NCBI RefSeq assembly: GCF_900215725.1
Contig: NZ_LT962472.1
Coordinates: 5,495-58,530, forward strand
DNA: 53,036 nt
Source: Ezakiella peruensis
GTDB lineage: Bacteria > Bacillota > Clostridia > Tissierellales > Peptoniphilaceae
Reading direction: 5' to 3'
Under the pieces are notes generated by a model. That model was not told the DNA's origin. It was given only the letters and a program-made list of their open reading frames with translations, and did no database searches. Shown in pieces: positions 44,971 to 46,564 of the stretch. Within the stretch, counting starts at the first letter, position 1; every line of letters begins with the position of its first letter. The position numbers and the translations under genes are program-made.

Positions 44971-46564
44971 ATTATCACTAAATGATGTGGAATGGGGAGA
45001 ATTTAGAATAGGAGATGTATTTGATGTATCTGGCACAATAACAACTCATCCTAGTAGTTTAAATAAACCTGGCAAATTTCCTAGAATTACTTGTGCGGGA
45101 ACGAATAATGGTTTAGATGATTTTTACAATAATACTATAACTGAAACAGGAGGAGTATTGACTGTAGATAGTGCTACAGACGGCTATATATTTTACCAAA
45201 ATAATGATTTTTTAGCCACAGATCACGTAGAGAAAATTTCAATGAAAAACGGACAGAAGATGTCAAAAGAGATAGGGTTATTTGTAAAAACAGCAATTGA
45301 AAATTCAAAAGATAAAAAATATGGATATGGATATAAGTTTAGTCAGTCTAGAATAAATAAACAAAAGATTAGTTTGCCGATTGATAACTTAAATAACCCC
45401 AACTGGAAATTTATGGAAGATTATATCAAGCAAGAGCAAAGAGAAATTGCACAAAAAATAGTTTCTTATTATGAGCAAAAAATGCTTGAAACAGGCTTTG
45501 ATTTACTTGGACTTGAAGACCTCGAGTGGAAAACATTTAAAATAGAAGATGTTTTTGATATTAGACCTGTTAAAGGAAAGGTTATTTCTAATTATTCAGA
45601 CGGTAATGTACCTTATATTTCGACTTCTAGTCAAAGCAATGGTTTAATAGGATTTGTTGATTCGGAAAAAGATATTAGTATGGAAAAATGTATATCAATA
45701 GATCCTATTGCTGGAAATTGTTTTTATCATGACTATAAATTTATTGGTCGTGGTGGAGCGGGTTCTGCTATCAATTTGCTTTATAATGAAAATTTAAACA
45801 GTCATAATGCAAAGTTTATTATAGGTTCATTAGAAACAGCATCTAAAAGTAAGGCATCTTATGGTCTAGCATTAAATGGAAACAGACTGAAAAATACAAA
45901 ATTAATTTTACCTGCAGATAAAAATGGCAATCCTCATTGGGAATATATGAGTAAATTTATGCAAAAATTAGAAGCAAAAAAGCTCGAGAAAGTGCTTGAC
46001 TATATATATATATATATATATATATATAGGTTAGCGGTTTGCAGGGAATCTGAACTAGCAGGTCTCTATGAAAAAGAATGGAAAGAATTTTGGCTTGAGG
46101 ATATTGTGGATATTAAATCGGGACAAGATATTTATGCAAGAGAAAGAATTGAAGGCAATACCCCATATATAACTGCAACTGCACAAAATAATGGCATAGG
46201 TTATTTTGTAGATAACATAAACAAAACTTTGGAAGAAAAAGTTATAAGTGTAAACCGCAATGGTTCTGTAGGATATGCGTTTTACCATGATTATAAAGCT
46301 TTATATGGAAACGATACAAGACAATTAGTCCCTAAACATAAAAATAAATATTTTTCATTGTTCCTGACAAATGTTATTACTAAGCAGAAAGAGAAATATG
46401 GTTATGGTTATAAAATGGGAACAGGTAGGCTAAAGAGGCAAAAGATATTGTTGCCGATTAATAATTTAGGAGATTTGGATTTTGATTATATTGAGAAATA
46501 TATGCAAATTCAGGAAATAAAAAAATATTATGATTTGATTTCTTATTATCAAAGTCAGATCTAA
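44957..46564 (+). CDS. Restriction specificity subunit with three TRD-like domains and a TA-repeat switch
   Basis: The product is 535 residues. Three domains share the target-recognition pattern: WGEFRIGDVFDV (about 12), WKTFKIEDVFDI (about 190) and WKEFWLEDIVDI (about 375), each followed by a TPYI/VPYI-like strand, a GYGYK or SYGLALNGN segment and a closing KISLPI/KLILPA/KILLPI strand. Helical spacers separate them. BcgI-type S proteins have two such domains. Between the second and third is a (TA)14 tract (46001-46028) encoding Tyr-Ile repeats. One TA fewer gives a TAG; one more gives GGT TAG. Both end the protein just past domain two at about 356-359 residues. The start at 44957 is chosen for a GGTGAAG site; an ATG 12 nt upstream is possible. 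It overlaps the RM gene by 14 nt. Confidence 0.85.
   Translation: MKKNRLSLNDVEWGEFRIGDVFDVSGTITTHPSSLNKPGKFPRITCAGTNNGLDDFYNNTITETGGVLTVDSATDGYIFYQNNDFLATDHVEKISMKNGQKMSKEIGLFVKTAIENSKDKKYGYGYKFSQSRINKQKISLPIDNLNNPNWKFMEDYIKQEQREIAQKIVSYYEQKMLETGFDLLGLEDLEWKTFKIEDVFDIRPVKGKVISNYSDGNVPYISTSSQSNGLIGFVDSEKDISMEKCISIDPIAGNCFYHDYKFIGRGGAGSAINLLYNENLNSHNAKFIIGSLETASKSKASYGLALNGNRLKNTKLILPADKNGNPHWEYMSKFMQKLEAKKLEKVLDYIYIYIYIYRLAVCRESELAGLYEKEWKEFWLEDIVDIKSGQDIYARERIEGNTPYITATAQNNGIGYFVDNINKTLEEKVISVNRNGSVGYAFYHDYKALYGNDTRQLVPKHKNKYFSLFLTNVITKQKEKYGYGYKMGTGRLKRQKILLPINNLGDLDFDYIEKYMQIQEIKKYYDLISYYQSQI
46001..46028 (+). repeat. (TA)14 simple sequence repeat inside the specificity gene
   Basis: The tract is 28 nt, preceded by GAC and followed by GGTTAG. 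Its present length keeps all three recognition domains in frame. Either single-unit change produces an immediate stop. Tracts of this length are prone to slippage during replication. Confidence 0.95.

Follow-up and report, generated by a model that had tools for sequence, protein, structure and literature searches.

Does the TA repeat inside the S gene of a BcgI-like restriction-modification operon in Ezakiella peruensis act as a switch, and, if so, between which states of the specificity subunit? The window analysed here is the whole stretch of 53,036 nucleotides taken from contig NZ_LT962472.1 (assembly GCF_900215725.1), in which a gene for a fused nuclease-methylase (RM) runs into the gene for S (Table 1). 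Our analysis indicates that the locus is probably a phase-variable BcgI-type (Type IIB) RM system, in which slippage in the TA tract switches S between two and three recognition domains (TRDs), changing its specificity.

The assignment to the BcgI type draws on both subunits. The PADLOC model REase_MTase_IIG (PDLC03602) matches RM residues 7-639 (E 5.1e-168), the N6_Mtase domain (PF02384) is present, and the protein carries the motifs PE-X12-ExK at residue 55 (PEYVGVIKDFIIVIEDK), DPCCGT at residue 356 and NPPY at residue 441. RM is therefore a fusion of an N-terminal nuclease with the PE-X12-ExK pattern—described as such for BcgI (PMC9159934)—and an N6-adenine methylase, adjoined by a separate HsdS-like S, as in other BcgI-like systems. 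The open frame of S begins at ATG 44945 (539 aa) or ATG 44957 (535 aa), overlapping the end of RM by 26 or 14 nt, respectively, and contains three Methylase_S (PF01420) stretches (E 3.7e-52). A sequence search of solved structures with S gave no match at E 0.01, and no NCBIfam family matched S; Foldseek, run on the S model, matched HsdS structures and the S subunit of BsaXI (8w0p).

Table 1. Features of the RM-S operon, in positions of the window.
Feature	Position	Strand	Basis or detail
RM subunit, nuclease and N6-adenine methylase, BcgI type, 661 aa from TTG 42985	42985..44970	+	
S subunit, three-TRD form	44957..46564	+	ORF; three Methylase_S stretches; Specificity_II PDLC03591, E 2.2e-68
TRD1, residues ~13-149	44993..45403	+	Pfam and secondary structure of the model; borders approximate
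CR1 helix, residues ~150-183	45404..45505	+	Model helix 150-183 (two-TRD model), 150-179 (three-TRD model)
TRD2, residues ~191-326	45527..45934	+	Pfam and models
CR2 helix up to the tract, residues ~328-348	45938..46000	+	Helix starts at 328 in the models
(TA)14 hinge	46001..46028	+	Encodes YIYIYIYIY; the last base begins the next codon
Two alternative stops	46027..46034	+	TAG 46027-46029 right after the tract (one phase); GGT-TAG, TAG 46032-46034 (other phase)
TRD3, residues ~375-507	46079..46477	+	Pfam, start-codon and position survey, model
CR3 helix, residues ~509-534	46481..46558	+	Model helix 509-534

The tract at the centre of the question is a perfect (TA)14 and the sole match to this repeat in the window; none of 100 dinucleotide-preserving shuffles contained one, and all eight overlapping matches to (TA)7 in the window fall inside the same tract (shuffle mean 0.00). 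An earlier, sequence-only reading of this DNA had placed the repeat at 46001-46028 between TRD2 and TRD3, in frame with both sides, and this placement is exact. Translation with altered tract lengths showed that 13 or 16 units lead to a stop directly after the tract, that 12 or 15 units add a single Gly before a stop, and that 14 or 17 units carry the frame into the third domain—bearing out the earlier statement that TAG comes next after 13 units and GGT, then TAG, after 15. By simple arithmetic, the products from ATG 44957 comprise 356, 535 and 359 residues for 13, 14 and 15 units, respectively, the lengths that had been given. The shorter product shows the plan TRD1-CR1-TRD2-CR2, and the 14-unit form consists of three TRD-CR modules. 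With AlphaFold2, the two-TRD form models as an ordinary S, with fair scores (pLDDT 83.3, pTM 0.57), and the three-TRD model is weaker (pLDDT 75.5, pTM 0.43); in the latter, CR2 and the YI run form a single helix (residues 328-370) of low confidence at the hinge, and the placement of TRD3 is not to be trusted.

To place the hinge in a broader context, relatives of the operon were retrieved with S and RM as queries from genome contigs, from genomes of kin at several ranks and from IMG/VR, these sets overlapping one another. The S query found matches in 9 of 61 close-kin genomes and the RM query in 12 of 130 family genomes; matches also occurred in 14 of 249 order genomes, in 9 of 391 genomes of the class sample and, under a stricter limit, in 2 of 398 of the phylum sample. 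All matches in the plasmid (24 records) and phage (12 records) collections stayed below 60% identity to the query, with no strain-level relative among them. Identical contigs from two collections were counted once (L006=G146, L007=G111, L010=G296). No S was visible in G003, G030 or G424, two loci that reach the end of the retrieved DNA (L090, L091) stand outside the counts, and the hinge survey leaves out L087, L088 and L096-L103.

A TA tract of 10-33 bp, as assembled, lies at the CR2/TRD3 joint of 14 loci. Five of them are fused and encode the three-TRD form (the window, 28 bp; L050, 23 bp; L046, 19 bp; L041, 17 bp; L005, 10 bp), and nine are out of frame and encode the two-TRD form (L006, 25 bp; L007, 18 bp; L008, 24 bp; L009, a partial locus, 13 bp; L042, 19 bp; L044, 18 bp; L045, 24 bp; L075, 33 bp; L086, 25 bp). 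The fused share, 5 of 14, is close to the one third expected if tract lengths wander freely. In the single lineage formed by L041, L075 and L086, one alternative phase runs 5 or ~33 residues beyond the tract before it meets a stop. Most TRD1s of the 14 loci are mutually unrelated, and the joint is the same in all. Within the family, the hinge is present in 8 of the 10 genomes that have RM and a visible S, and these eight span seven genera. The compared sequences thus establish a conserved hinge, variation in its length and both reading states among loci.

A further 21 loci in the same survey lack the TA tract, indicating that the hinge belongs to one branch of BcgI-like systems rather than to all. 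They comprise 14 loci with an S of two-TRD size (L062, L056, L065, L067, L070, L076, L077, L080, L081, L082, L084, L089, L094, L095), three in which a two-TRD S is followed by a separate one-TRD ORF (L047 3017-3526, L048 3052-3582, L083 7945-8475)—the same three modules in split form—and two with a frame of one-TRD size (L066, L085). In the last two, L078 has two half-S frames after a two-TRD S, and L079 has a GA tract instead. The latter, an IMG/VR record, carries 21 bp of GA (7444-7464; ERERERE) at the TRD1/TRD2 joint of another BcgI-like S; the stored sequence is out of frame, and tract length would therefore toggle one versus two TRDs. This GA version suggests that the hinge design may be more general. 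Additionally, L010 (2492-3808) and L011 (1840-3156) have a truncated TRD2 fused to a third TRD across a TA run of 11 bp, as though a deletion had returned the gene to two TRDs.

Slippage is indicated most directly by a relative, represented by the two IMG/VR records L075 and L086, with tracts of 33 and 25 bp. Outside the tract, these alleles have no indel; they differ at 2 of 3,000 positions between the RM start and the tract, and the 545 positions that follow it are identical. Their flanks are more divergent (48 of 1,100 positions upstream, 20 of 1,022 downstream), suggesting that the operon may have been exchanged recently. Two features of a repeat-mediated phase-variable RM gene are present: a long perfect repeat in the reading frame of the window gene and, in relatives, a length difference between otherwise near-identical alleles. 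The sequence-only reading had held that an invariant tract would speak against a switch; among relatives, the lengths differ. Its proposed toggle between two and three TRDs is well supported by the comparison—14 loci, both states, the L075/L086 pair and selection on TRD3—although L075 and L086 are both out of frame, in different phases, and so do not form an ON/OFF pair.

Among the eight loci with TRD3 of type A, 26 of 28 pairs gave a computable dN/dS, with values from 0.091 to 0.245; the six out-of-frame loci (14 of 15 pairs computable) gave the same range, and type B yielded one value from six pairs, 0.107. All these values are approximate, since synonymous differences approach saturation. 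A dead domain would not be expected to keep intact frames and amino-acid identities of 67-87%, and, on these estimates, TRD3 is under purifying selection even where it is out of frame (dN/dS about 0.09-0.25). L075 and L086 lie outside both this analysis and the start-codon analysis, in which 7 of the 12 loci checked, including the window, had no in-frame start before TRD3; among out-of-frame loci, the same was true for five of seven. Candidate starts occur in the other five of the 12 (ATG in L046 and L045; TTG in L050, L008 and L005), and simple matching found a Shine-Dalgarno-like motif at the L005 TTG only. Independent translation of TRD3 was set aside as improbable on these counts. In L046 (3070-3100; genome G105), we also observed a TAATG stop/start overlap where the tract ends and a TRD3 start resembling the N-terminus of S, an arrangement hinting at a past state in which the third module was a coupled gene of its own.

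All five fused proteins have a spacing of 41 residues between the CR1 start and TRD2. Between CR2 and TRD3, the spacing is 41 residues in L005 (10 bp), 43 in L041 (17 bp), 45 in L050 (23 bp) and, with the 28 bp of the window, 47; the joint thus gains two residues whenever three TA units are added in frame. L046, the junction of which differs, has a spacing of 40 residues. Comparing TRDs across 19 loci, 13 of them with three TRDs, we found that TRD3 belongs to one of two types in all 13: type A (the window, L050, L006, L007, L008, L009, L042 and L044) or type B (L005, L045, L046, L041 and L075). Neither type was found at position 1 or 2 of the same 13 proteins; both recur as the terminal TRD of two-TRD relatives (L062, type A; L056 and L067, type B). 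The middle TRD falls into three types across 12 loci, and TRD1 mostly differs. Exceptions are L070, with a terminal TRD of a middle type, and L047, with type B in first position. This pattern suggests that three-TRD S genes may carry an extra middle TRD ahead of a standard terminal one. More tentatively, and with a probability somewhat below even, the TA hinge could be viewed as a cross-genus exchanger of terminal domains: the ON phase would pair TRD1 and/or TRD2 with the standard terminal TRD, the OFF phase would make the middle TRD terminal, and each locus could thereby reach at least two bipartite specificities by slippage alone, with three-unit steps perhaps tuning the half-site spacing.

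In the mechanism that we propose for the switch itself, slipped-strand mispairing would alter the TA count where the second recognition module of S meets the third. Slippage within the window's own species may be presumed from its relatives. With the count in frame (14 here, plus or minus three units), S would be built as TRD1-CR1-TRD2-CR2-TRD3-CR3, and the other two phases would stop at the hinge and produce an ordinary two-TRD BcgI-type S. Both forms are predicted to assemble with RM and to be active, the two-TRD form presumably reading TRD1+TRD2 half-sites and the three-TRD form adding or substituting sites read with TRD3 (TRD1+TRD3 and/or TRD2+TRD3). The latter step is by analogy to JHP1422, a three-TRD S of H. 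pylori for which TRD1+TRD3 and TRD2+TRD3 constructs each methylate a motif (PMC3936762), so that an altered or added specificity would be expected in the ON phase. A population would then hold cells of different specificities; the change in DNA specificity and methylation, and any effect on gene expression, are predicted consequences.

Other explanations were weighed against this mechanism. The tract might instead switch activity on and off, if only one form of S works with RM, e.g., because the third module blocks (RM)2S assembly. Such an outcome would agree with most published repeat switches in RM genes, described as on/off in PMC7394358, with the defined (RM)2S assembly that BcgI-type complexes require (PMC11997821) and with the low confidence of the three-TRD model at the joint. 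However, TRD3 is kept under purifying selection, 5 of 14 loci, among them L005 with a repeat of just 10 bp, have the three-TRD gene in fused form, and H. pylori has an active Type I S with three TRDs (PMC3936762), all of which render an activity switch unlikely. A quite improbable alternative holds that TRD3 is made as a separate half-S by re-initiation in the OFF phase, the tract toggling between fused and split S: the ATG straight after the tract in L046, with its S-like TRD3 start, the separate one-TRD ORFs of L047, L048 and L083, and the five candidate starts, that of L005 with its Shine-Dalgarno-like motif included, would suit it, but the seven loci without an in-frame start, which include the window and five of the seven out-of-frame loci checked, would not.

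We likewise give very little credence to TRD3 as a silent reservoir for domain movement by recombination, with the tract incidental. TRDs do move between positions of S genes (PMC3077401), the TRD1s of L006 and L046 resemble TRD2 of the window (about 50%), and TRD3 types appear elsewhere in some two-TRD relatives; yet TRD3 is one of two types in the 13 three-TRD loci, neither of them at position 1 or 2 there, and both products stay open in the frames that the tract permits. Least probable of these explanations is a neutral microsatellite or an assembly artefact. The genomes are rich in AT, and a few more TA tracts occur elsewhere in them, but a neutral repeat was rejected as the main reading in view of the shuffles (0 of 100), the same joint in 14 loci with mostly unrelated TRD1s and the open TRD3. 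Moreover, the tracts are short enough for ordinary reads to span, which counts against an artefact.

Several observations from the surrounding genomes deserve mention in their own right. The 1.67-Mb genome of the window has TA runs of eight units or more at four places, the hinge included, and in four of eight genomes searched (G028, G111, G012 and G146) the hinge is the sole such place. The three other tracts of the window genome (G000) lie at C1:344290-344311 (L001 1500-1522), C1:117475-117490 (L104 1576-1591) and C3:139838-139854 (L105 1639-1655), 36-76 bp upstream of predicted ORF starts with N-termini that, by eye, look like signal peptides; two of the three ORFs show beta-helix-like repeats, again by eye. 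Promoter-type phase variation of surface proteins is possible at these sites, and the three tracts are consistent with TA repeats serving variation more widely in the window species. In Peptoniphilus timonensis JC401, a member of the same family, ~61 kb of DNA interrupts the RM gene in the region of methylase motif I (G146:C2, between 202575 and 263835; ends in L072 and L073), an insert with recombinase-like and conjugation-like ORFs (by eye). Two further contigs have ends nearby: G145:C91 starts with RM residue 360, and the last RM residue in G030:C56 is 356; together with the split gene, these ends suggest that the motif I region may be a repeated insertion site.

If the two-versus-three-TRD switch operates as proposed, cells could randomly change which DNA is marked as their own through tract length. 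Should both forms be active, cells of one clonal population would differ in their self-marks, with a bearing on phage defence, on the uptake of genes and perhaps on epigenetic regulation. The hinge would also offer a natural test of how a three-TRD S chooses its TRD pair, and its signature, YIYIYI where CR2 ends, makes it easy to find by sequence.

Searches of open-licence papers turned up no account of a dinucleotide hinge toggling two versus three TRDs in a BcgI-type S. The new element is this hinge, kept across genera; slippage that alters a specificity gene is known, as is a three-TRD S, and domain movement yielding one-, two- and three-TRD S genes has been published (PMC3077401). The earlier statement that slippage switching is known in restriction systems agrees with two precedents. 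In the Type I system NgoAV of Neisseria gonorrhoeae, poly-G slippage in hsdS yields a short or fused S with the motifs GCAN8TGC versus GCAN7STCA; the repeat is a homopolymer, and the alternatives are half- and full-length S rather than two and three TRDs (PMC9577141). In the Type IIG enzymes Hpy99XIV (JHP1272) and HpyAXVI (HP1353-HP1354) of Helicobacter pylori, a second homopolymer tract brings in an extra recognition domain at the C-terminus and changes the motif, but these are single-chain enzymes with a small add-on domain and without a separate S (PMC3936762). BcgI and BsaXI (Type IIB) share with the window operon the RM fusion and the HsdS-like S, and BsaXI S is a fold match of the window S, whereas the passages on them in PMC11997821 and PMC9159934 describe two TRDs in S and no repeat switch. 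JHP1422, a Type I S of H. pylori, likewise has three TRDs, but its TRD2 equals its TRD3, and its description in PMC3936762 includes no repeat hinge. Finally, HP1471/HP1472 and JHP1364/JHP1365 of H. pylori combine a BcgI-like RM and S with a phase-variable repeat in S, as does the window locus; there, however, the repeat is poly-G, and its described role is to block full-length translation of S rather than to switch between two and three TRDs (PMC3936762).
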